Shown: positions 2,760-12,728 of the stretch, piece after piece
Layout: each line of letters starts with the position of its first letter
Position numbering within the stretch: the first letter of the stretch is position 1
DNA from: Candidatus Lithacetigena glycinireducens
GTDB taxonomy: Bacteria; Coprothermobacterota; HKB111
DNA length: 12,728 bases
Assembly: GCA_018725485.1 (NCBI GenBank)
Contig: QLUP01000017.1
Location: 1-12,728 of the forward strand
Reading direction: 5' to 3'
Made by a program: the position numbers and the translations under genes
The notes under the pieces: model-generated
Seen by the model: only the letters and a program-made list of their open reading frames with translations
Databases searched by the model: none
Told to the model about the DNA's origin: nothing

Positions 2760-2984
2760 ATGACAAGAAAAGTTTTACAAGCAAAAGCGAAAAAGGAGTG
2801 CCCAGACTTGATAAGGTTAAGGTGTTTGCAGAACTTGGACCGAAGTTCCAAGTGTGGTAGGGGTACCTTTTCTGAGTGTTGTTTCGTTGGTTGTAGCTGG
2901 GAGTGTTTTCAACACTGTCCGCAAATAACCTACCTTACCAAACTTGTGAAAAAAGACGAGGAAGAGCAAAAAAAGAAAAAATAA
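2760..2984 (+). CDS. Small Cys-rich protein with Lys-rich tail
   Basis: ATG 2760 is preferred over a much longer frame from 2577, because CGAGGAGAATTAAA lies just upstream and the longer version would translate a palindromic repeat. The 74-residue protein has eight cysteines (14, 22, 32, 40, 41, 45, 49, 53), some in CCFVGC and CSWECFQHC arrangements that could bind a metal or form disulfides. The end is highly charged (KKDEEEQKKKK). No known family was recognised. It is 13 bases upstream of the next gene and probably co-transcribed with it. Confidence 0.6.
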   Translation: MTRKVLQAKAKKECPDLIRLRCLQNLDRSSKCGRGTFSECCFVGCSWECFQHCPQITYLTKLVKKDEEEQKKKK

Positions 2985-2997
2985 AAGGAGGCAAAAA

Positions 2998-3225
2998 ATG
3001 TTTGACTTAACAGCGAGGGTTTACGAAATGATGGGGTTGTATGTCCCAAAGTCGGAGCGTCCAGCAATAGATAACTCCCTATTGCGTGGAAGCGAGATAG
3101 AGCAAGAGGAGAGTTTTGAAACTGTTAGGGACATGCTGGAAGCAGGTGGGCATTGCACCTGCGGGGCACACTCGGAGGAGGTAGTAGACGGAGAGTGTAT
3201 GAGTTGTGGAAAAATTAATGTTTAG
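2998..3225 (+). CDS. Small protein with C-terminal zinc ribbon
   Basis: ATG 2998 follows AAAAGGAGGCAAAAA. The 75-residue product has an acidic helical part (EQEESFETVRDMLEAGG) and a C-terminal cysteine motif, C53-T-C55 and C67-M-S-C70-G, typical in spacing of a short zinc ribbon. Its last 20 bases overlap the start of the methyltransferase gene, so the two are probably translationally coupled. A role as a helper or DNA-binding partner of the methyltransferase is possible but rests only on position. Confidence 0.7.
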   Translation: MFDLTARVYEMMGLYVPKSERPAIDNSLLRGSEIEQEESFETVRDMLEAGGHCTCGAHSEEVVDGECMSCGKINV

Positions 3226-4063: not shown

Positions 4064-4579
4064 ATGGAAGTAGAAGTGAGAGGAATAAAGTTAAAGGGTT
4101 ATGGAGATAGGTTAAAGAGAACTAAATATAAAGGGATACCAAAGGAAATCAGATTGACAGCAGGAGAAAAAGATGGAACAGAAGAAGTAAAACAGATTAC
4201 AAAAGAGATAGCGAAAGCATTTAATAGTGTGTTTGGTTATGTGGCAATTGACCACATAGAAAAGGTTCTAAAAAATGTAAGTAGAGAAAAAATATACAAG
4301 AATATAGTTTGGATGGCTAAAAATAATGAAGGAGTAATGAATGTAGACAGAGCAGGGCAGGTAGTGTATTTTAGAGTGCAAGGGGATAAGGGTATAAGGG
4401 TACAAGGGAGTAAGGGAATAAGAGAGAGTAGGAAAATAAGCCCTGACGACATGACTAAAGGGGATCTTGTGCAGAATTCTTCACAAAGTCAAAAGGATGA
4501 AACGAAAGTTAAAAGAAGGAGCGAAAGTCAAAAGGGGGAAACGAAGTGGAGGAATTTTGACGAAGCGGGTGAATTTTAA
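4064..4579 (+). CDS. Possible winged-helix protein with repeat-derived tail
   Basis: ATG 4064 follows AAGGAGAAGTTATAT. Residues 42-106 (KQITKEIAKAFNSVFGYV, then VSREKIYKNIVWMAKN, then GQVVYFRV) have the helix-helix-helix-strand-strand pattern of a winged-helix DNA-binding domain; this is a structural guess, not a recognised family. Residues 107-171 are different: DKGIRVQGSKGIR comes from a purine-rich repeat, LVQNSSQSQKDE covers a near-palindrome (4463-4490), and SESQKGETKWRNFDE is the translated GTCAAAA...TTTTGAC repeat. The original C-terminus was probably replaced by repeat DNA. The 66-base gap before it (3998-4063) is purine-rich simple sequence of AAGGGTATAAGG type. Confidence 0.65.
   Translation: MEVEVRGIKLKGYGDRLKRTKYKGIPKEIRLTAGEKDGTEEVKQITKEIAKAFNSVFGYVAIDHIEKVLKNVSREKIYKNIVWMAKNNEGVMNVDRAGQVVYFRVQGDKGIRVQGSKGIRESRKISPDDMTKGDLVQNSSQSQKDETKVKRRSESQKGETKWRNFDEAGEF
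4463..4490. repeat. 28-bp near-palindrome with AGAATTCT core, copy 1
   Basis: The sequence runs GATCTTGTGCAGAATTCTTC and continues ACAAAGTC. Copy 2 at 5775-5802 ends ACAAGATC and is a nearly perfect palindrome with one mismatched pair. This copy lies inside the coding sequence of the winged-helix-like gene and is immediately joined to an AGTCAAAAGGATG repeat. Confidence 0.8.
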
Positions 4580-4641
4580 CGAAGTGAAGGAATTTTGACG
4601 GGTTTTGACGGGTTTTAACGAAAGTCAAAAGGAGGTAAAAG
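4487..4641. repeat. GTCAAAA...TTTTGAC dispersed repeat cluster 1
   Basis: This cluster contains several units of the form GTCAAAAGG...GAATTTTGACG, for example 4524-4563, plus shorter AATTTTGACG and GGTTTTGACGGG pieces. Each unit can form a hairpin through GTCAAAA and TTTTGAC. The left part encodes the tail of the gene at 4064-4579; the right part is the only gap before the paralog array and runs directly into the SD AAAAGGAGGTAAAAG. Confidence 0.85.
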
Positions 4642-5133
4642 ATGAGTAAATACTACACACTTAAAGAGGTAAGAGCTCTCAGAGATAAAATAAGCAAGTT
4701 AGGTGAAAGAAAAATTGATGAGTTGGAGGCGAAATACGAGAAGGCAGAGGAGGAATATGACGAGGCAGAGGCGGAGCATTATGAGCATTATGGAACAGAG
4801 GGAGAGTATGGTAGAACAGAAGCGGAACTGGATAAGATAGCAGCAGAGCGGGATAAAGCAAGAGCGGAGCGGAATAAGGCAAGAGCGGAGTATGAGAAGG
4901 TAGGAGCGGAGTATGATGTCCAACTCTTCACCCTTCTTACTTCCTGTTGTCCAAAGGCTCACTACTGGGATTGGGAAGGTTATCTTGCTATCTCCAAGAG
5001 TAAAAAAGATGACTGGATTATCCCCGTCTTTGCGGGGGACTTTAATGGGATAAAGCACAAGGCATTTTCTATATGGGAGATGCCAAAAGATAGTTGTGAT
5101 AAGAAGGATATGAAGGAGGTAAAAGATGAGTAA
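4642..5133 (+). CDS. Array paralog 1: head, coiled coil, conserved C-terminal domain
   Basis: First copy of the array family, which I do not recognise. It has 163 residues: head MSKYYTLKEVRALRDKISKLGER, a charged Ala/Glu/Lys-rich coiled-coil middle, then the C-terminal domain from VQLFTLL to the end. The spacing from LGER to LF is 71 residues. The middle is unusual in holding Tyr/His/Gly-rich sequence (EHYEHYGTEGEYG) before it returns to AERDKARAERNKARAE heptads. The C-terminal domain has CCPKAHYWDWEGYLAIS and DDWIIPVF and KHKAFSIWEMPKDSCD. The start is fixed by AAAAGGAGGTAAAAG. The gene ends KEVKDE, whose codons form the SD of paralog 2, and overlaps it by 8 nt. No signal peptide or membrane segment, so probably intracellular. 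Confidence 0.88.
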   Translation: MSKYYTLKEVRALRDKISKLGERKIDELEAKYEKAEEEYDEAEAEHYEHYGTEGEYGRTEAELDKIAAERDKARAERNKARAEYEKVGAEYDVQLFTLLTSCCPKAHYWDWEGYLAISKSKKDDWIIPVFAGDFNGIKHKAFSIWEMPKDSCDKKDMKEVKDE

Positions 5134-5557
5134 ATACTACACATTAGAGGAAGTGAGAGTAGTCAGGAATAAAATAAGTGAGTTAGGTGAGAGGAGATTT
5201 CCCCTACTGGAGGAAGAATGGGATAAAGCAAGGGCAGAACGGAATAAGGCAATGGCAGAGCGGGATAATGTAGGGGCAAAATGGAGTAAGGCAGTGGCGG
5301 AGCGGGATAAGGCAGTGGCGGAGTATGATAAGGCAAGGGCGGAGTATGATATAAAACTTTTTGATACTCTTATTGTAATTTGTCCAGAGGCCTATTACTG
5401 GGATTGGAGGGGCTATATCGCTATCCCCAAGAGTAAAAAAGATGACTGGATTGTCCCCGTATTTTCTGGGGATTACAAGGGCGTAAAACATAAGGCATTT
5501 CCTATATGGGAGATGCCGAAAGATAGTTATGATGAGAGGAATGCAAAGGAGGTATAA
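5126..5557 (+). CDS. Array paralog 2
   Basis: This copy has 143 residues: head MSKYYTLEEVRVVRNKISEL, a middle of clean AERDKAV/AEYDKAR heptads (54 residues from LGER to LF) and the C-terminal domain ICPEAYYWDWRGYIAIPKS through KAFPIWEMPKDS. It begins by an 8-nt overlap (ATGAGTAA) with paralog 1. It ends AKEV, encoded by AAGGAGGTATAA: the SD is kept, but no start follows, so a downstream partner was probably lost or replaced by the 260-base repeat-filled gap. Bases 5402-5477 are identical to 6563-6638 in paralog 4, a sign of recent gene conversion. Confidence 0.88.
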   Translation: MSKYYTLEEVRVVRNKISELGERRFPLLEEEWDKARAERNKAMAERDNVGAKWSKAVAERDKAVAEYDKARAEYDIKLFDTLIVICPEAYYWDWRGYIAIPKSKKDDWIVPVFSGDYKGVKHKAFPIWEMPKDSYDERNAKEV

Positions 5558-5709
5558 AGGCAAGGGAAAGTCAAAAGGAGGAACGTTAGCGGGTGAATTT
5601 TGACGAAAGTCAAAAGGATGAAAGTCAAAAGAAGGAGCGCTAGCGGGTGAATTTTGACGAATGCGTAAGCAGGGTGAATTTTGACGGGTTTTGACGAATA
5701 AGGGGAAAA

Positions 5710-5731
5710 TAAGTCATGTCGACATGACTTA
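5710..5731. repeat. 22-bp perfect palindrome, copy 2
   Basis: This is identical to 2408-2429 (core AAGTCATGTCGACATGACTT). It is joined directly to a GTCAAAAGGATG repeat unit on its right side, as the first copy is joined to a GTTAAAAGGAGG sequence. The conserved join suggests that palindrome and repeat travel together. Confidence 0.9.
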
Positions 5732-5774
5732 AGTCAAAAGGATGAAACGAAGTGAAGGAATTTTGACGAGAGTG

Positions 5775-5802
5775 GATCTTGTGCAGAATTCTTCACAAGA
5801 TC
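5775..5802. repeat. 28-bp near-palindrome, copy 2
   Basis: This copy starts GATCTTGTGCAGAATTCTTC and ends ACAAGATC. It is symmetric except for one base pair (C against T ten bases from each end). It ends 16 bases before the ATG of paralog 3, so as RNA it would be a hairpin just upstream of the SD and could affect its translation. Confidence 0.85.
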
Positions 5803-5817
5803 AAAAGGAGGTAAAAG

Positions 5818-6195
5818 ATGCGTAAATACTACTCACTAGAGAAAGTAAGGAGTATAAGAAATGAGATAAGCAAGTTAGGGGAAAGGAAATCTAATAGGTT
5901 GAAGGTAAACTTAAGTAAAGCAGGGGCAAGGTATGATAAGGCAAAGGCAGAGTGGAGTAAGGGAATAGCGGAATGGGATGTCCAACTTTTTACTCTCCTT
6001 GTCCAGATTTGTCCAGAAAGTCATTACCGCAATTGGACAGGTTATCTTATTATCCCAAAGAGTAAAGATGAAGATTGGATTGTCCCCGTATGGACAGGGA
6101 ATTATTTTGGTGTCAAGCACAAAGCATTTTCTATATGGGAAATACCGAAATACAGTTGTAATGGGAGCGATGCAAAGGAGGTGAAAGATGCGTAG
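5818..6195 (+). CDS. Array paralog 3, short coiled coil
   Basis: At 125 residues this is the shortest complete copy: head MRKYYSLEKVRSIRNEISK, only 33 residues from LGER to LF, then the C-terminal domain (ICPESHYRNWTGYLIIPKS, DWIVPVWTGNY, KHKAFSIWEIPK). The start is fixed by AAAAGGAGGTAAAAG after the near-palindrome. Its stretch GATGTCCAACTTTTTACTCT and the following 20 bases match paralog 7 almost exactly, again pointing to segment exchange between distant copies. It ends KEVKDA and overlaps paralog 4 by ATGCGTAG. Confidence 0.87.
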   Translation: MRKYYSLEKVRSIRNEISKLGERKSNRLKVNLSKAGARYDKAKAEWSKGIAEWDVQLFTLLVQICPESHYRNWTGYLIIPKSKDEDWIVPVWTGNYFGVKHKAFSIWEIPKYSCNGSDAKEVKDA

Positions 6196-6727
6196 GTACA
6201 CATTAGAGGAAGTAAGGAGTATAAGAGATAAAATAAGCAAGTTAGGTGAAAGAAAAATTGAGTCGGAGGCGGAGCGAGATAGAATAGAGGCAGAGTACGA
6301 GAAAGCAGAGGAGAGGTATGAGAAAGCAGAGAAGAAGTTCAAGAAAGCAGAGAAGAAGTTCAAGAAAGCAGAGAAGAAGTTCAAGAAAGCAGAGGCGGAA
6401 CTGGATAAGATAGAGGCAGAGTGTGATAAAGCAAGAGCGGAGCGAGATAGGCTAGGAGCAGAGTGTGATAAAGCAGGGGCGGAGTATGATAAAGCAGAGG
6501 CGGAGTGGGACATAAAACTTTTTGACATCCTTATCTCAATTTGTCCAGAAGGTCATTACCGCGATTGGAGGGGCTATATCGCTATCCCCAAGAGTAAAAA
6601 AGATGACTGGATTGTCCCCGTATTTTCTGGGGATTACAGGGGCGTAAAACATAAAGCATTTTCTATTTGGACCATACCAAAAGATAATTGTGATGAAAGG
6701 GAAGCAAGGGAGGTAAAAGATGAGTAA
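6188..6727 (+). CDS. Array paralog 4, longest coiled coil
   Basis: At 179 residues this is the longest copy. The head is slightly shortened (MRRYTLEEVRSIRDKISK); the middle is 88 residues from LGER to LF and includes three KKFKKAE heptads that are near-identical in DNA (6320-6382). The C-terminal domain is standard (ICPEGHYRDWRGYIAIPKS, DDWIVPVFSGDY, KHKAFSIWTIPKDNCDE). Relative to paralog 3 its middle is eight heptads longer, allowing for one missing residue near IESEAERD. It overlaps both neighbours by 8 nt, and its end REVKDE contains the AGGGAGGT SD for paralog 5. Confidence 0.88.
   Translation: MRRYTLEEVRSIRDKISKLGERKIESEAERDRIEAEYEKAEERYEKAEKKFKKAEKKFKKAEKKFKKAEAELDKIEAECDKARAERDRLGAECDKAGAEYDKAEAEWDIKLFDILISICPEGHYRDWRGYIAIPKSKKDDWIVPVFSGDYRGVKHKAFSIWTIPKDNCDEREAREVKDE
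6320..6382 (+). repeat. 21-bp coding minisatellite in paralog 4
   Basis: Three tandem units of AAGAAAGCAGAGAAGAAGTT plus C occupy 6320-6340 (first base differs), 6341-6361 and 6362-6382, followed by a partial fourth. Each unit encodes one heptad (KKAEKKF). This shows coiled-coil growth by whole 21-bp steps, as expected from replication slippage or unequal recombination. Confidence 0.92.
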
Positions 6728-7181
6728 ATACTACACATTAGAGGAAGTAAGGAGTATAAGAAATGAGATAAGCAAGTTAGGGGAAAGGAAAATAGATGAG
6801 TTGGAGGTAGAGTATGATAAGGCATGGGCGGAGTGGGATAAGGTAGCGGCAGAGTTGAATAAGGAAGGGGCAGAGTGTGATAAAGCAAAGGCGGAGTGGA
6901 TTAAGGTAGGGTCGGAGCGTGATAAGGCAGTGGCTGAGTGGAATAGGGCGAGAGCAGAATGGGATATAAAACTTTTTACCCTTCTTATTGTCCTTTGTCC
7001 AGAGGCATATTACCGTGATTGGAATGGCTATCTTGCTATTTCAAAAAATGATAATGAAGAATGGATTTTACCTGTATGGACAGGGAATTACAATAGTATA
7101 GAACATACAGCCTTTTCTATATGGACTATGCCGAGAGGAAGTTGTAATGAGGAAGATGCAAGGGAGGTAAAAGATGAGTAA
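6720..7181 (+). CDS. Array paralog 5
   Basis: This copy has 153 residues with 61 residues from LGER to LF, exactly four heptads more than paralog 3. The middle has clear seven-residue periodicity with Trp/Tyr/Cys/Leu alternating with Ala (AEWDKVAAELNKEGAECDKA). The C-terminal domain reads LCPEAYYRDWNGYLAISK, EEWILPVWTGNY, EHTAFSIWTMPRGSCNE. The first 61 or so bases are identical to the start of paralog 6. It is linked on both sides by 8-nt ATGAGTAA overlaps. Confidence 0.88.
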   Translation: MSKYYTLEEVRSIRNEISKLGERKIDELEVEYDKAWAEWDKVAAELNKEGAECDKAKAEWIKVGSERDKAVAEWNRARAEWDIKLFTLLIVLCPEAYYRDWNGYLAISKNDNEEWILPVWTGNYNSIEHTAFSIWTMPRGSCNEEDAREVKDE

Positions 7182-7683
7182 ATACTACACATTAGAGGAA
7201 GTAAGGAGTATAAGAAATGAGATAAGCAAGTTAGGTGAAAGAAAATTTGATGAGTTGGAGGCAGAGCGGGATAAGGCAAGGGCAGAGTGGGATAAGGCAG
7301 CGGTGGAGTGGGAAAAAGTATTTATAAGGTGGGGTAAGCAATTGCATAGCCAAGTTCTTATCATCCAGCCACTGGTAGAGCGGGATAAGGCAGAGTGGAG
7401 TAAGGCAGTGGCGGGGTGGAATAAAGCAAGGGCGGAGTTGGATAAGGCAAGGGCGAAATGGGATATGAAACTTTTTAAAATTCTTGTTTCAATTCTCCCA
7501 GAAGGTCATTATCGTGATTGGCTTGGATACCTCACTATCCCAAAAGATGAAGATGAGGAATGGATTATACCTATATTTACGGGGGCTTATAGAGAAATAA
7601 AGCATACAGCATTCTCTATATGGACTATTCCGAAAGAAAGTTGCGATGAGAAATTAGCAAAGGAGGTAAAAGAAGATGAGTAA
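7174..7683 (+). CDS. Array paralog 6 with non-heptad insert
   Basis: This copy has 169 residues with 76 residues from LGER to LF. The middle starts and ends in the usual heptads, but a hydrophobic insert (FIRWGKQLHSQVLIIQPLVE) breaks the charged pattern at about residues 50-68. The insert is unlike any other copy and may come from foreign or out-of-frame DNA, or form a hinge. The C-terminal domain is kept, but the cysteine of the ICPE motif is replaced (ILPEGHYRDWLGYLTIPKD). It ends KEVKEDE, with one extra residue before the ATGAGTAA overlap. Confidence 0.88.
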   Translation: MSKYYTLEEVRSIRNEISKLGERKFDELEAERDKARAEWDKAAVEWEKVFIRWGKQLHSQVLIIQPLVERDKAEWSKAVAGWNKARAELDKARAKWDMKLFKILVSILPEGHYRDWLGYLTIPKDEDEEWIIPIFTGAYREIKHTAFSIWTIPKESCDEKLAKEVKEDE

Positions 7684-8080
7684 ATACTACACATTAGAGG
7701 AAGTAAGAGCGATTAGGGATAAGATAAGCCAGTTAGGTGAAAGAAGTTCTCCCGAGCTGGATGTCCAATTAGAAAAAGCAAGGGCAGAGTATAGTAAAGC
7801 AAAAGCAGAGTGGGGTAGAGTATATGCAGAGTGGAATAAAGCACGGGCGGAGTGGGATGTCCAACTTTTTACTCTCCTTGTCCAGATTTGTCCAGAAGGT
7901 TATTACCGTGATTGGGCAGGTTATCTTGCTATACCACAAGATAAAAGTGAGGACTGGATTATACCAGTGTTTGCAGGAGATTATGTCGGTGTCCAACATA
8001 AAGCATTTTCTATATGGGATGGACCATACCGAAATGCAGGTATAATGAGAATAATGCAAAGGGAGGTAGCAGATGAGTAA
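7676..8080 (+). CDS. Array paralog 7
   Basis: This copy has 134 residues with 40 residues from LGER to LF, one heptad more than paralog 3. The head is MSKYYTLEEVRAIRDKISQL and the C-terminal domain ICPEGYYRDWAGYLAIPQD, EDWIIPVFAGDY, QHKAFSIWDGPY. The final part differs from other copies (YRNAGIMRIMQREVADE instead of the usual PKDSCDE-KEVKDE), which suggests a local frameshift or replacement that still kept the SD-coding REV end. The start of its C-terminal domain is nearly identical in DNA to paralog 3. Confidence 0.87.
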   Translation: MSKYYTLEEVRAIRDKISQLGERSSPELDVQLEKARAEYSKAKAEWGRVYAEWNKARAEWDVQLFTLLVQICPEGYYRDWAGYLAIPQDKSEDWIIPVFAGDYVGVQHKAFSIWDGPYRNAGIMRIMQREVADE

Positions 8081-8471
8081 ATACTACTCCTTAGAGGAAG
8101 TGAAAAATGTTAGGGATAGGATAAGCAGGTTGGGGGAAAGAAATTCCCCCCAGCTGGAGGCGAAGTTAAGTAAAGCAAGGGAGAAGTTAAGTAAAGCAAG
8201 GGCAAAATGGGGTAGGGCACATGCAAAATGGAGCAAAGCAAGAGCAGGATGGGATGTGAAACTTTTTACTCTTCTTATCCCAATTTGTCCAGAAGGTCAT
8301 TATCATGATTGGAACGGTTATCTTGCTATCCCCAAAGATGATAATGAGAATTGGATAATTCCTGTATTTACGGGGAATTACAAAGATATGGAACACAAAG
8401 CGTTTTCTATATGGACTATTTTGAAATATAATTACGATATGGATAAAGCAAAGGAGGTGAAGGATGCGTAG
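8073..8471 (+). CDS. Array paralog 8
   Basis: This copy has 132 residues with 40 residues from LGER to LF, the same as paralog 7. The middle is basic and Ala-rich (SKAREKLSKARAKWGRAHAKW). The C-terminal domain reads ICPEGHYHDWNGYLAIPKD, NWIIPVFTGNY, EHKAFSIWTILKYNYD. It ends KEVKDA; AAGGAGGTGAAGG then serves as SD for the membrane-protein gene, which it overlaps by ATGCGTAG, the same junction found between paralogs 3 and 4. Confidence 0.87.
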   Translation: MSKYYSLEEVKNVRDRISRLGERNSPQLEAKLSKAREKLSKARAKWGRAHAKWSKARAGWDVKLFTLLIPICPEGHYHDWNGYLAIPKDDNENWIIPVFTGNYKDMEHKAFSIWTILKYNYDMDKAKEVKDA

Positions 8472-8835
8472 AAAAGTGAAAAGATTTTGGAGAAATACAA
8501 GGGAAAGGTGGCATCGGACGGAAGATAAATTTTTCAAGGTTCTTTTTGCCATTACCATTTGTCTGGGAATAGCAATTATCATAAGTCAGACAAAAATGTA
8601 TATCACCCGCTTAAATAGAGAGTTGAAGGATTGCAAGCAGGTGGTAAGAACCTTGCAGACTAAGGAGGCTGCAAGTAAAGGCATTATGCGTGGGCTGCAA
8701 ATTGAACTTGACAAATGCAACAAGAAATATAACGAGTGCGAAGGGTTCAGGAGTATAATTCGCAATTTGCCAGTTGGTGAGGACATTGAGTTTGATAAAG
8801 TTATCCCATTACCGGGAATAGAGGAGACAAAATAA
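8464..8835 (+). CDS. Single-pass membrane protein with extra-membrane coiled coil
   Basis: This 123-residue protein starts with a strongly basic segment (MRRKVKRFWRNTRERWHR) and has one hydrophobic helix at residues 23-42 (FFKVLFAITICLGIAIII). A charged helical region with coiled-coil character follows (about 46-95, RLNRELKDCKQVVRTLQTKE) and a Pro-ending tail. The positive-inside rule predicts N-in, C-out (inference). It is not a family I recognise; i-spanin-like proteins have this layout, but there is no o-spanin or lysis gene nearby. It is coupled to paralog 8 by an 8-nt overlap and its TAA shares one base with the ATG of the amidoligase gene, so it belongs to this operon and could anchor the system at the membrane. 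Confidence 0.75.
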   Translation: MRRKVKRFWRNTRERWHRTEDKFFKVLFAITICLGIAIIISQTKMYITRLNRELKDCKQVVRTLQTKEAASKGIMRGLQIELDKCNKKYNECEGFRSIIRNLPVGEDIEFDKVIPLPGIEETK

Positions 8836-10277
8836 TGAAAAGAAGATTAAAATTACAACAGAACTCCCCACCCACCACTGAGTGCATGGCGGAGGCAAAA
8901 GAGAGATTCTTTCGCTCCTACTTTAAACAGGGGATAAATCATGTCTCCATAGTGTCCTTAGAAAAGGACACGGTTTACGTCTTTTGTTATTTCCAGCACC
9001 CTCTCCCCTTTCACGGAGAGAGAGTTTTTCCTTTCCACCTTCGCCTCCCAGAGGAAAAAATAAGGGAGTGCAATTGTTTCTTCGACTGGAGGGGAGAAAG
9101 GGAAATGCTTAATTCTGGATTCGGAATTAAGCTCATAGAAAAAGACAGAGGACAAGTTATGGGGTTTTATGACCCTGTAAACAATGTCCTGATTACATCG
9201 GATTGGACGCATAGCAGTGAAAATTTTCCTCTTATTGAGGAAATTATGCTTGCTATCAGGTGGATAAAAGAAACTCCATCTGACCTCTGGCAAGAGATAG
9301 GGCTAAAAACTCTAGCCTTTGCCAACAAAGAATTAATAAGTAAAAAAATAACTCTGGGAGCGGACCCAGAGTTTGAATTGTTGAGGGATGGATGGATAGT
9401 TCCTGCAGAGGAATATTTTTCGTCTCTGCAAAGTCGCATTGGATGTGACGGCTCAGGTCACCAACTTGAGCTGAGACCGTCTGCGAGCTCCTCCTCTGAG
9501 GAACTTGTCAAGAAAGTAGCCTCACTGATAAGTGAGGTTTACAGCGAAGGCTTCACTTTATCCACAGAGGGAGATGAATTTCCTCTCGGTGGACACCTGC
9601 ATTTTGGGGTAGAAAATTTTTCTACTTCATATGTAGAGTTGTTAGATCTCTTTTTGGGAGGATTACTTCTCCCGCTTTCTGGAGAAGCCAGAGGGAGTTA
9701 CAGAAGGTTGGGGAAGTATGAAACAAAGGACTGGGGGTTTGAGTATCGCAGTCTGCCATCTGCTATCTTTGCTTCGCCAAAGATAGCAGCGATAGTGGGA
9801 GAACTTGCTCTCTCGCTTATTCAAGAATTAACAGACCTGGAAGAGGTCTGCGTTGATGTCTCAAAAAGAGACCTTCCCTACATTCATGAATATAGGAAAA
9901 GGATAGGCCATGAAAAAACTAATGCCCTTCTTAACTTTGTCAGAAACAAAATAACCTCATTCAAGAGTGAGGAATGGGGTGTCTTAGAAAGCTACAGAAT
10001 TAGCTTCAGCTCAGCAGACACCTTCTCTGAAGATGTCAGAGGAGAAATAATTAGAATTCTAGGTCCAAAGATAAAAAGAAATATCCGCTTCTTTGGGCTT
10101 AGAGCTGACAGAGGAAACGATGTCATCTCTGGGTTTGATGCAGAAGGGTATAGGAATATAGAATTATCGGGAGGTTATGGGCTCCCGTATCATGTGAGAA
10201 CAAATAATGATAATTTTAGCGAATTGCATTATTTGTTATCTAAAATAATAGAAAGTCAAAAGGATGAACGTGAGTGA
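8835..10277 (+). CDS. phiEco32-like COOH-NH2 ligase (amidoligase, glutamine-synthetase-like fold)
   Basis: This 480-residue protein belongs, by motif, to the phage phiEco32-like COOH-NH2 ligase family (type 2): GADPEFELL (175-183), DGSGHQLELRPS (205-216), GGHLHFGV (252-259) and RLGKYETKDWGFEYRSLPSA (291-310). These carry the acidic and histidine residues expected to bind metal-ATP and the carboxylate in GCS2/glutamine-synthetase-like ligases, which form amide bonds from a carboxyl and an amine using ATP. Residues 1-165 form an extra domain I do not recognise. The last residues (ESQKDERE) are translated GTCAAAA repeat. Its gene starts by a 1-base overlap with the membrane-protein gene. It is rich in exact coding hairpins, including a 12-bp stem at 9760-9789. 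The true substrate is unknown. Confidence 0.85.
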   Translation: MKRRLKLQQNSPPTTECMAEAKERFFRSYFKQGINHVSIVSLEKDTVYVFCYFQHPLPFHGERVFPFHLRLPEEKIRECNCFFDWRGEREMLNSGFGIKLIEKDRGQVMGFYDPVNNVLITSDWTHSSENFPLIEEIMLAIRWIKETPSDLWQEIGLKTLAFANKELISKKITLGADPEFELLRDGWIVPAEEYFSSLQSRIGCDGSGHQLELRPSASSSSEELVKKVASLISEVYSEGFTLSTEGDEFPLGGHLHFGVENFSTSYVELLDLFLGGLLLPLSGEARGSYRRLGKYETKDWGFEYRSLPSAIFASPKIAAIVGELALSLIQELTDLEEVCVDVSKRDLPYIHEYRKRIGHEKTNALLNFVRNKITSFKSEEWGVLESYRISFSSADTFSEDVRGEIIRILGPKIKRNIRFFGLRADRGNDVISGFDAEGYRNIELSGGYGLPYHVRTNNDNFSELHYLLSKIIESQKDERE

Positions 10278-10360
10278 AGGAAAGTCAAAAGGATGAAACG
10301 AAGTGAAGGAATTTTGACGAATGCGAAAGCAGGATGAATTTTGACGAATTTTGACGAAAA
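10252..10360. repeat. GTCAAAA...TTTTGAC dispersed repeat cluster 3
   Basis: Units begin inside the end of the amidoligase gene (AAAGTCAAAAGGATGAACG) and fill the gap to the next gene. Bases 10282-10320 are identical to 5731-5769 over 39 bases. A further piece carries AATGCGAAAGCAGG, containing GCGAAAGC, a sequence known to form a very stable DNA mini-hairpin, followed by repeated AATTTTGACGA. Confidence 0.88.
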
Positions 10361-10371
10361 GGAGGAAGAAA

Positions 10372-11001
10372 ATGTGTAGAATATTTGCTTGGGACGACAA
10401 AGAAATGAAGCAAACAATTCCTCAAAAGGAATTGCTTGATGCCAATAAGAGAAACAAAGATGGTATCGGTCTGGCATACCTAAATAGCAGAGGATTCGTA
10501 GAGTTTGAAAAAGGTATTTCTTTGGAAAAAGCCCTGGCTATCTATGAGAGGATAGAATCGCCAGGGTTTATCCATTTTAGACTGGCGAGCTCTGGGAGTG
10601 TATGTCCAGAATTATGCCATCCATTTCCCCTGGGAGGTGATCTAAGGTTATCTGGTACAGTCAAGGAAGTAATTGCACATAACGGTATATGGGGTGGTTG
10701 GGAAAGGTATCTGATAAGTTATTACATGCAAAAGAAGATAGAAGTTCCTCCAGCGACTCTAATGTCAGATACAAGATTATTGGCAATGATAATCAAGGAC
10801 TGTGGAAGAAATGTCCTCGATTACTTAGAAGTTGGCAGGGTAGCCATACTAGACAAAGATGGTATCTATCTTTATGGAGAGTGGAATGAAAGTGGAGGCT
10901 ACTACGATAGCGAAAGGGCTTATAAGCAGTATCCCTATCTTTTTAAAGAGCAGCATCCTTATCTTACGGATCCTAGAGGATACCCTAGTTGGTATCTATA
11001 G
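10372..11001 (+). CDS. Class II glutamine amidotransferase
   Basis: The protein begins MCRIFAW, with Cys2 as the N-terminal nucleophile once Met is removed, which defines the class II (Ntn) glutamine amidotransferase fold. Further motifs are DGIGLAY (30-36), HFRLASSG (68-75), HNGIW (103-107) and MSDTRLLA (131-138). It hydrolyses glutamine to release ammonia. The 209-residue length is that of a stand-alone domain, so ammonia must go to a partner; the adjacent amidoligase or the ATP-grasp ligase is the natural candidate. ATG 10372 is chosen because GGAGGAAGAAA precedes it and because Cys must follow Met; the longer frame from 10351 would bury the nucleophile. The gene comes after a repeat-filled gap of 94 bases and 8 bases before the next gene. 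Confidence 0.9.
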   Translation: MCRIFAWDDKEMKQTIPQKELLDANKRNKDGIGLAYLNSRGFVEFEKGISLEKALAIYERIESPGFIHFRLASSGSVCPELCHPFPLGGDLRLSGTVKEVIAHNGIWGGWERYLISYYMQKKIEVPPATLMSDTRLLAMIIKDCGRNVLDYLEVGRVAILDKDGIYLYGEWNESGGYYDSERAYKQYPYLFKEQHPYLTDPRGYPSWYL

Positions 11002-11009
11002 GAGGGAAA

Positions 11010-11315
11010 ATGATAACACGTTTACAAAGAATGATAGAATATGGAGAAAGGGTCGTGGGAAAGAAAATATTCTTGCACCTATCGTCTGAGCTAGTCGTGG
11101 CAAAGGGTTTCTGTCGGAACGGGACAAGGAGTGATATTGTAATTTCTATCCCAAGGTTAAAAGATGAAAAGGAAATAGAAAGTATTTTTATGGAGGAAAT
11201 TACCCATATGCTCCTAAAACAAAAGGAGCACGATGCTTTCTTCTGGAAAAAGCACAGTGAGTTGTTAGATGCTTTCCAAAAGGAAAATGCAAGGGAAAAA
11301 GGTATAAAGGTATAA
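11010..11315 (+). CDS. Small metallopeptidase-like protein with altered active-site motif
   Basis: ATG 11010 follows TAGGAGGGAAA. The 101-residue protein has a beta-rich start (SDIVISIP, 41-48) and a helix with E62-E-I-T-H66, then H74 and FFWKKH (77-82). The pattern matches the zincin motif HExxH...H...FW of small YgjP/SprT-like metallopeptidases, except that the first His is Glu. The family is inferred from this pattern; activity may be lost or the metal site altered. It sits between the amidotransferase and paralog 9, which suggests it processes or binds a component of the system. Its end (GIKV) is translated from an AAGGTATAAAGG simple repeat. A 7-bp hairpin (11209-11230) lies in the gene. 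Confidence 0.6.
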   Translation: MITRLQRMIEYGERVVGKKIFLHLSSELVVAKGFCRNGTRSDIVISIPRLKDEKEIESIFMEEITHMLLKQKEHDAFFWKKHSELLDAFQKENAREKGIKV

Positions 11316-11333
11316 GGGAATAGGAGATATGAA

Positions 11334-11798
11334 ATGAGCAAATACTATGAACTAAAAGAAGTAACAAGCATTAGAGATGAAATAAGCAAGTTAGGGGAAA
11401 GAAAATTTCCTTTATTGGAAAGACAGTTGGAGAAGGCAATAGAGGAGTGGAGAGAAGCAAGGGCAGAGTGGGAAGAAGCAAAGACAGAAAAGACAATGGC
11501 AGAAATGGATAAAGCAATGGCAAAGTGTGATGAAGTAAGGAAGGAATGGAAAAGAATAATAGTGGAGTGGGACATCAAACTTTTTGATGTCCTTAATGTA
11601 GTCTGCCCAGAAGCATATTTCCACGACTGGGCAAGGTATCTTGTTGTCCCAAGAAATGAAGAGGAGGATTGGATAATCCCCGTCTTTGCAGACGAAAATT
11701 ATGAAATGAAAAATAAGGCATTTTCTATATGGGAGATGCCGAAGGATAGTTGTAGTGAGAAATTAGCAAAGGAAGTAAAAGATGATATAAGGGTATAA
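11334..11798 (+). CDS. Array paralog 9, separated from the main block
   Basis: This 154-residue copy lies between the metallopeptidase-like and ATP-grasp genes. The head is MSKYYELKEVTSIRDEISKL; 59 residues separate LGER from LF, and the middle departs from strict heptads (WEEAKTEKTMAEMDKAM). The C-terminal domain reads VCPEAYFHDWARYLVVPRN, DWIIPVFADENY, KAFSIWEMPKDSCSE. It is the most diverged complete copy. It ends KEVKDDIRV: the SD codons have decayed to AAGGAAGT and the downstream ATG to GATGAT, so it no longer couples to the next gene. Its own start uses a weaker SD (AGGAG, spacing about 7). Confidence 0.87.
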   Translation: MSKYYELKEVTSIRDEISKLGERKFPLLERQLEKAIEEWREARAEWEEAKTEKTMAEMDKAMAKCDEVRKEWKRIIVEWDIKLFDVLNVVCPEAYFHDWARYLVVPRNEEEDWIIPVFADENYEMKNKAFSIWEMPKDSCSEKLAKEVKDDIRV

Positions 11799-11809
11799 GG
11801 GGAGGACTA

Positions 11810-12568
11810 ATGGAAACCTTTCGTCAAAATTCCTCCGCTAACGCTCCTTCTTTTGACTTTGTTCTTTACTCACAAGCTTCTCTTGAAAGCGGGAGATTAT
11901 TAGCAGAGTTCTTTGATAACGGGGGCTGGTATCTATCAAAAGATGTCCACTGCCTTATCAGATGGGGAAATAGTAGTCCTGTCCAACACTCCTTTAAATA
12001 TGAAATAAATTCTCTATCTGCGGTAAAAAACACAGTAAATAAGGTAGAAATGATAAAAAAACTTAGAAAAACAGAAGGAGTTAAAGTTCCCTGGACATAT
12101 ATTCCTGTAAAGACAAAGTTTAAGAAATTAAACAGTATAGTAAATACTTTCATAATAAATAAGATGAAGCCGTTTGTATTTAAAGATATTTGTCATAACA
12201 ATAAATTAGTGAATAAGATTTCTGACAAAGAAGGATACTACCAAAAATTACTTGATATTAAAAATGAATATAGGGTATTCGTATTTAGGGATAAGCCGTT
12301 TTTGGTCTATGTAAAAGAAGGTGGTGATAAAAACTCTCTCTTTAGAAAGAGGGAGAATGGGTGGAGGTTAGTCCTTCTTTTAGATGGATACCCCCCAGAT
12401 ATATTGGGACAAAGCATAAAAGCGGTTGCCGGGCTCGGACTTGACTTTGGTGGAGTAGATGTCATTGAAGATAAGGATGGGAGGGTATATGTCATTGAAG
12501 TAAATACTGCACCACAACTCAATCGATTTAGAGCAAGAAAACTTGCTGAGCACATAAAGGAGGTATAA
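11810..12568 (+). CDS. ATP-grasp ligase (RimK-like)
   Basis: The C-terminal half carries the ATP-grasp signature: EYRVFVFRDKPF (153-164), GLDFGGVDVIEDKDG (210-224) and VYVIEVNTAPQL (226-237), with D217, E230 and N232 as likely metal ligands. The N-terminal part has CLIRWGNSSPV (48-58), a nucleotide-fold motif seen in phage RimK-like members. Such enzymes join a carboxylate to an amine through an acyl-phosphate. At 252 residues it is short but has the core. Residues 4-17 (FRQNSSANAPSFDF) are encoded by an inverted copy of the dispersed repeat, so the N-terminus is partly repeat-derived; GGGGAGGACTA precedes ATG 11810. It ends KEV, encoded by AAGGAGGTATAA, the SD of paralog 10. Confidence 0.88.
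   Translation: METFRQNSSANAPSFDFVLYSQASLESGRLLAEFFDNGGWYLSKDVHCLIRWGNSSPVQHSFKYEINSLSAVKNTVNKVEMIKKLRKTEGVKVPWTYIPVKTKFKKLNSIVNTFIINKMKPFVFKDICHNNKLVNKISDKEGYYQKLLDIKNEYRVFVFRDKPFLVYVKEGGDKNSLFRKRENGWRLVLLLDGYPPDILGQSIKAVAGLGLDFGGVDVIEDKDGRVYVIEVNTAPQLNRFRARKLAEHIKEV
11822..11860 (-). repeat. Inverted copy of the dispersed repeat inside the ATP-grasp gene
   Basis: Read on the minus strand this begins AAAGTCAAAAGAAGGAGCG and ends TTTTGACG; it matches 5621-5659 with only three differences in 39 bases. It codes for part of the N-terminus of the ATP-grasp protein on the plus strand. Confidence 0.9.
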
Positions 12569-12569
12569 A

Positions 12570-12728
12570 ATGTATAGGTACTACACATTAGAGGAAGTAA
12601 GGAGTATAAGAAATGAGATAAGCAAGTTAGGGGAAAGAAGTATCTCCCAACTGGATGCAGAGTTAGCCTGGAGGACTAAAACAAGAACGGGATGGGATTT
12701 GAAACTTTTTACTCTTCTTAGGACAATT
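12570..12728 (+). CDS. Array paralog 10, 5' part only (cut by window end)
   Basis: This begins ATG 12570 after AAGGAGGTATAAA; the SD overlaps the last codons of the ATP-grasp gene. The first 53 residues are visible: MYRYYTLEEVRSIRNEISK, LGERSISQLDAELAWRTKTR, then GWDLKLFTLLRTI, which enters the C-terminal domain. Only 22 residues separate LGER and LF, the shortest middle of all copies, with almost no coiled coil. The array therefore continues beyond the window. Confidence 0.85.
   Translation, partial: MYRYYTLEEVRSIRNEISKLGERSISQLDAELAWRTKTRTGWDLKLFTLLRTI

Follow-up and report, generated by a model that had tools for sequence, protein, structure and literature searches.

In chickens, the BG genes form a clustered multigene family that expands and contracts, in which heptad coils are encoded by 21-nucleotide (nt) units and protein size varies with the number of heptads (PMC4046983). 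Among phages, a lineage-specific expansion with about 35 zinc-ribbon copies has been described for Bacillus phage G (PMC7824862). A literature search for tandem heptad arrays in phages gave no relevant prokaryotic case. The stretch analyzed here (the window) is a complete contig of 12,728 bases, C79, which belongs to a 1.24-Mb, 204-contig genome bin of Candidatus Lithacetigena glycinireducens, and carries an array of genes that resembles both systems. As in the BG family, the genes are clustered, contain 21-nt heptad units and differ in length by heptad count; as in phage G, one element holds many paralogues of a small family that is poorly understood.

Ten copies are found in the window, nine of them complete and the tenth cut by the contig end. 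An earlier note on this DNA had described these copies, their motifs and their layout, with eight in tandem, one in the amidoligase cluster and one at the edge; the description was confirmed, and the open reading frames (ORFs) lie where the note had placed them. Three more contigs of the bin carry the family, with one (C132), five (C151) and three (C175) copies, which makes at least nine beyond the window. The copies are named W1–W9 (window), A1 (C132), B1–B5 (C151) and C1–C3 (C175), and the data comprise one genome bin, partial contigs and 18 complete family sequences. Each protein carries a coil of stepped length between two conserved ends. The reading that we favour, though only tentatively, is that the array is a kit: its coiled-coil rods would be translated together, come in graded lengths, share their docking ends and work with a membrane protein.

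Conserved ends, stepped coils and junction DNA

The proteins consist of a head of about 23 residues with LGER at its end, a coil, and a C-terminal domain of about 73 residues that extends from the motif [WY]DxKLF onward. Window copies are 51–62% identical to the first copy, with 29 invariant alignment columns, and none of the rod proteins has a membrane segment. The coil is rich in alanine and encompasses 84 residues in the longest copies and 18 in the incomplete copy 10. Counted back from [WY]DxKLF, its unit is [W/L/Y/R]-[D/S/N]-K-A-x-A-E, with alanine at frequencies of 64% and 79% at two positions, and 21-bp tandem repeats are present in the DNA of most window copies. The middle had been called highly variable in the earlier note; it does vary, but as a minisatellite coil of 21-bp, 7-residue units and not as random sequence. 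Coil lengths in the complete copies are 29, 36 (four copies), 41 (two), 50, 55, 57, 64, 67, 71 (two), 72 (two) and 84 (two) residues, and 10 of the 18 have the form 7n+1. With orthologues counted once, this form is found in about eight of 14 lineages against two expected, for a phase that was picked post hoc. The suggestion that the copies are a set of differently sized parts is therefore supported by the overall range of 18–84 residues, traversed mostly in heptad steps, and by the matching lengths of orthologues described below.

The genes are tightly joined. In 13 of 17 consecutive gene pairs the overlap is exactly 8 nt (ATGAGTAA, ATGCGTAG and close variants); among these 13 are three of the four junctions between the array and the membrane-protein gene. 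At the 8-nt junctions, a GGAGGT ribosome-binding site falls inside the end of the upstream gene. One piece of DNA, AAGGAGGTAAAAGATGAGTAA, read in two frames, encodes both the KEVKDE at the end of one copy and the MSK at the start of the next. Because this DNA doubles as ribosome-binding site and stop/start overlap, the extreme C-terminal conservation is partly a nucleotide constraint, and the fixed last residues therefore give no evidence of a protein signal. A crossover in the junction would keep both reading frames intact, and the junction can therefore act as a cassette boundary.

The array also serves as a site for other small genes. A 44-residue ORF, MSKYYDKLKGMWFKIFGSEADKEAVKYYVQLVKIMLGAKEVKDE, lies between C2 and C3 (L032:2310-2430) and, as the array copies do, begins with MSKYY and ends with KEVKDE. 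A stretch related to it is found at L031:1380-1690, beside a zinc-finger-like ORF within the array and before B5.

Searches of Pfam, NCBIfam, PHROGs, PADLOC and PDB profiles gave only generic coiled-coil or chance-level matches for the family, which bears out its description as an unrecognised coiled-coil family. In the structural models, which are weak, the head appears as a helix, along with a long helix and a small C-terminal domain rich in beta structure. Foldseek returned nothing at an E value below 0.36 with the models of W8 and of the C-terminal domain. With VIA-align, head and coil matches were mainly helical, and the C-terminal domain reached a Z score of at most 4.1. One SMI1/KNR4 (SUKH) chain aligned to this domain at Z 4.1 over 54 residues of a low-confidence model; the chain was not listed when the domain alone was used, and Pfam gave no match.

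Related elements and the history of the copies

The four array-bearing contigs have a common gene order despite their divergence, with the Cys-rich and zinc proteins first, the tandem copies (8, 1, 5 or 3) next and the membrane protein last. The two backbone proteins are 57–88% identical to the first sequence of their alignments. The gene of the membrane coiled-coil protein closes the array in all four elements, and the sister proteins are 76–78% identical to that of the window. Upstream of the array are replication genes, which encode a DnaC-like loader and a DnaD-like protein on C151, a DnaD-like protein on C132 and a DnaC-like loader on C175; DNA methylases are encoded downstream on C132 and C175, and C132 has a weak candidate for a terminase small subunit. 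Because they have a diverged backbone in common, together with phage-type DnaC/DnaD replication genes, we read the four contigs as probable related phage-like elements in one bin, which may be prophages that share a host or several viral strains that fell into one bin. A link to C141 (L131), a contig of the same bin with a tailed-phage terminase large subunit and portal, was considered and rejected, as it has no gene in common with the array contigs.

Two repeat proteins are encoded in the sister elements, one with a 7-residue GQSxSGD repeat and one of the hexapeptide type, IGSNCWIGDYCWIG, at L030:6499-7032(-) and L031:3-332(-), and elements of this group may thus often carry in-frame minisatellites. 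At the end of C132 (L030:292-1422(+)) lies a gene for a TnpB-like transposon-associated protein, so classed by sequence alone.

No homologue of the array family, the membrane protein, the Cys-rich protein or the amidoligase was found in 40 related genomes (the source phylum is small and represented by about nine genomes), GTDB contigs, IMG/VR, INPHARED and PLSDB, in searches with short conserved peptides plus tblastn that distant relatives would escape. Two other phyla likewise gave none, with no positive control in either search, and an Rfam search had no match. The bin contains no 16S rRNA, and its DnaA shows at most 50% identity to that of named genomes, of which the best are mostly Bacillota. 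The earlier note had counted absence from related genomes, together with decay, against selection; the family is absent from those genomes, but decay is slight, as the 18 complete copies appear intact but for a C-terminal deletion in C2.

The ratio of non-synonymous to synonymous substitution rates (dN/dS) has pairwise medians of 0.12 for the head, 0.54 for the coil and 0.28 for the C-terminus, figures that are rough because synonymous distances approach saturation. Purifying selection acts on both ends. With values below 1 in all three parts, the proposed selection for diversity was not supported. The coil is under looser constraint, not under positive selection, and its diversity is explained by recombination together with unit duplication.

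Orthologous coils of different elements are more alike than the coils within an array. Coil identity amounts to 94% for W8/C1, 77% for W6/B3, 70% for B1/C2, 70% for B2/C3 and 68% for W1/B5, and within the window array it is at most 58%. The coil lengths of these pairs, in the same order, are 36/36, 72/72, 71/71, 41/41 and 67/64 residues. Cross-element coil orthologues thus have a mean length difference of 0.43 residues versus 20.8 for random inter-element pairs; the call of pairs by length-normalised identity favours equal lengths, and the same five pairs top an ungapped matrix. In some of the same pairs the C-terminal domains have changed length: C2 lacks about 24 residues, and C3 is 8 longer than B2.

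Within single genes, the parts have different relatives. At the DNA level, W8 and C1 are 95% identical in the coil and 68% in the head; the C-termini of W2 and W4 are 86% identical and their coils 54%, and W5 and W6 share 97% of the head and 71% of the coil. Distances between heads are not correlated with those between C-termini (r = -0.08, p = 0.75) or coils (r = 0.05, p = 0.29), and the correlation between coil and C-terminal distances is weak (r = 0.17, p = 0.05). The histories of head, coil and tail are largely uncorrelated, and the cassettes have therefore been shuffled. In agreement, the longest tract shared between copies exceeds the maximum of each of 400 site permutations, with long tracts found, for instance, in W2/W4. 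Variation in the array consists of unit number and cassette mosaicism, and no reverse transcriptase of a diversity-generating retroelement is present among the scanned ORFs of the window, which is part of an element. The family therefore predates the split of the elements, with its ends constrained and its modules reshuffled.

What the rods may do

In the favoured reading, the array would be a single operon with coupled translation, carried by a phage-like element, and would make soluble rods in which the head and the small C-terminal domain act as docking ends and the coiled coil between them differs in length. The operon would close with a membrane-anchored coiled-coil protein. The rods would most likely pair with each other and with this protein, and would connect one pair of partners across varying distances or in varying combinations. 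Homologous recombination, both at the shared ribosome-site/start/stop junction and within the conserved ends, could create new rods, as could gain or loss of 21-bp units of one heptad each. We infer rod pairing, membrane recruitment, any role in infection and also timing, the last because the array lies just downstream of replication genes in the sister elements. It is conceivable, although we consider it doubtful, that the array is a phage ruler kit, in which one operon would supply stepped-length rods with identical docking ends, and these and a membrane anchor would give structures spaced by the chosen rods; recombination of cassettes at the translation junction would renew the kit.

Several observations weigh against a kit of graded rods. 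C132 holds a single copy, and a graded set is therefore not essential. Differences between the heptad units of one gene are spread about evenly over the three codon positions, a pattern that recent duplication of units would give if the single heptads were not under strong selection. The equal lengths of orthologues could reflect a slow rate of slippage, and there are only five clear pairs. AlphaFold gave no confident fold, as the mean predicted local distance difference test score was 65 for W8 and the C-terminal domain alone reached 58, and no homologue of known function was found in the database searches.

The strongest rival, which we hold to be possible but somewhat unlikely, is gene amplification with neutral drift in length. 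The copies would all do the same job, extra copies would supply dosage, and slippage by 21 bp would be tolerated for any whole heptad. The equal differences at all codon positions fit this explanation, as do the different copy numbers of the elements (10, that is 8+2, in the window, then 5, 3 and 1), the junction, which keeps duplications in frame, and the dN/dS of the coil, the highest of the three parts. Yet same-length orthologous lineages persist across diverged elements, and coils differ more within one array than between orthologues, the reverse of what recent amplification within an element predicts.

An arms race is a less likely explanation. The rods would bind variable targets of the host or of rival phages, in anti-defence, as decoys or in superinfection exclusion, shuffled coils would yield new specificities, and the membrane protein would be the effector. 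Mosaic cassettes, variable copy number, the membrane protein at the operon end and an accessory-gene setting next to orphan DNA methylases would all suit such a role. However, dN/dS stays below 1 in every part, PADLOC matches are limited to generic coiled coils, and variation in the coil concerns its length, on a single heptad theme, and not an exposed surface for binding.

The topology of the membrane protein, a charged N-terminus followed by one membrane helix and a coiled coil, recalls Rz-like inner spanins, and the Rz-like profiles PHROG 739 and PHROG 5151 each match one of the four orthologues, with a weak best E value of 0.00098. This resemblance is not enough to call the protein a spanin. 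That the array forms an accessory lysis or envelope module is very improbable, as the matches span a generic membrane helix and coil in a minority of members, neither lysin nor holin is recognised beside the gene, and the array adjoins replication and methylase genes.

Whichever role applies, the array offers a clear natural case in which protein ends are fixed and a rod changes by whole heptads, and related elements keep several of its lengths next to each other. Should the rods of the favoured reading act as spacers, they would constitute a ready-made set for studying selection on coiled-coil length and pairing. The stop/start overlap shows how recombination at a translation junction can stay in frame and build gene cassettes.

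Neighbouring genes and known systems

The features of the window are collected in Table 1. The sole gap within the tandem array is a possible second control region. A near-palindrome, TTGTGCAGAATTCTTCACAA, occurs at 4467-4486 and 5779-5798, the only two sites in the whole genome bin; both sit upstream of array genes, and the sequence resembles a site for a dimeric regulator. Another palindrome, TAAGTCATGTCGACATGACTTA, perfect over 22 bp, is found twice in the window, upstream of the backbone genes (2408-2429) and in the array gap (5710-5731). Intergenic mosaic repeats built of GTCAAAAGG and GAATTTTGACG modules lie at 4485-4620, 5566-5770 and 10251-10359, and a 35-bp form of this repeat, the one form tested, is confined to the window contig. 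The contig edge (1-119) holds 2.3 copies of a perfect 51-bp tandem repeat. A 170-residue protein encoded at 484-996 has a C-terminal coiled coil and a RYSLEEVQ stretch similar to the array head, and might be either a distant relative or a chance likeness.

Table 1. Features annotated in the window, with coordinates in bases
Feature	Coordinates	Strand	Remarks
Cys-rich backbone protein	2760..2984	+	present in all four elements
Zinc-ribbon-like backbone protein (MFDLTA...)	2998..3225	+	common to window, C132 and C175
W1	4642..5133	+	163 aa, coil 67 aa
W2	5126..5557	+	143 aa, coil 50 aa (7n+1)
Sole gap within tandem array	5558..5817	+	TTTTGACG/GTCAAAAGG repeats, two palindromes
W3	5818..6195	+	125 aa, coil 29 aa (7n+1)
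W4	6188..6727	+	179 aa, coil 84 aa
W5	6720..7181	+	153 aa, coil 57 aa (7n+1)
W6	7174..7683	+	169 aa, coil 72 aa; orthologue B3 (C151)
W7	7676..8080	+	134 aa, coil 36 aa (7n+1)
W8	8073..8471	+	132 aa, coil 36 aa (7n+1); orthologue C1 (C175)
Single-pass membrane protein with coiled coil	8464..8835	+	123 aa; 8-nt overlap with W8
COOH-NH2 ligase type 2 (amidoligase)	8835..10277	+	PF14395, 64 bits (cut-off 25); only copy found in genome
Class-II glutamine amidotransferase-like	10351..11001	+	GATase_6 14.2 bits, below cut-off 27
Small metalloprotease-like protein	10989..11315	+	weak WLM match; EEITHMLL motif
W9	11334..11798	+	154 aa, coil 55 aa; between metalloprotease-like ORF and ATP-grasp gene
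ATP-grasp ligase, R2K_3 family	11810..12568	+	R2K_3 28.1 bits (cut-off 26.3); PHROG 2599, E 5e-24
Copy 10	12570..12728 (contig end)	+	incomplete; coil 18 aa

The genes at 8835-12568 appear to form a cluster of their own, of a type known from phages (LUZ24/phiEco32-type), and 222 phage records match the ATP-grasp ligase. The C-terminal domain of W9, which lies among these genes, is one of the most divergent. Because the amidoligase is single-copy in the genome and arrays occur in four elements, the array family is independent of it. The idea that the rods are substrates or carriers of the adjoining amidoligase and ATP-grasp enzymes, in a logic like that of small protein tags attached by a carboxylate-amine ligase, would fit the position of copies 9 and 10 within the ligase cluster and the peptide or protein ligation predicted for R2K_3 enzymes (PMC4431377), but it is hardly credible given that single amidoligase against arrays in four elements and an acidic C-terminus that is accounted for by the ribosome-binding site of the next gene.

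Another known system is that of tail tape-measure proteins, which are encoded by one long gene per phage, in the tail module. They are long and helical, their length can serve as a ruler, and the array rods share their helical character and weak, generic hidden Markov model matches. By contrast, the array consists of many small copies (8+2, 1, 5 and 3) that lie outside a tail module, beside replication and methylase genes, and membership was rejected.

The available part of the report on the LUZ24-like phage UFV-P2 describes a COOH-NH2 ligase, an amidoligase, a glutamine amidotransferase and an ATP-grasp gene in the early module (PMC3890496). The co-occurrence of COOH-NH2 ligase, class-II amidotransferase and ATP-grasp genes corresponds to that in the window cluster. 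In that part of the report a coiled-coil array is not mentioned, whereas the window cluster embeds two array copies. The expansion in phage G concerns a different domain, and the array copies differ from it in that they are translationally coupled, mosaic and length-graded. The BG proteins are vertebrate membrane receptors with immunoglobulin domains and exon-encoded coils, to which the array has no sequence relation; the chicken family is thus an analogy in how variation may arise, and not one of membership.

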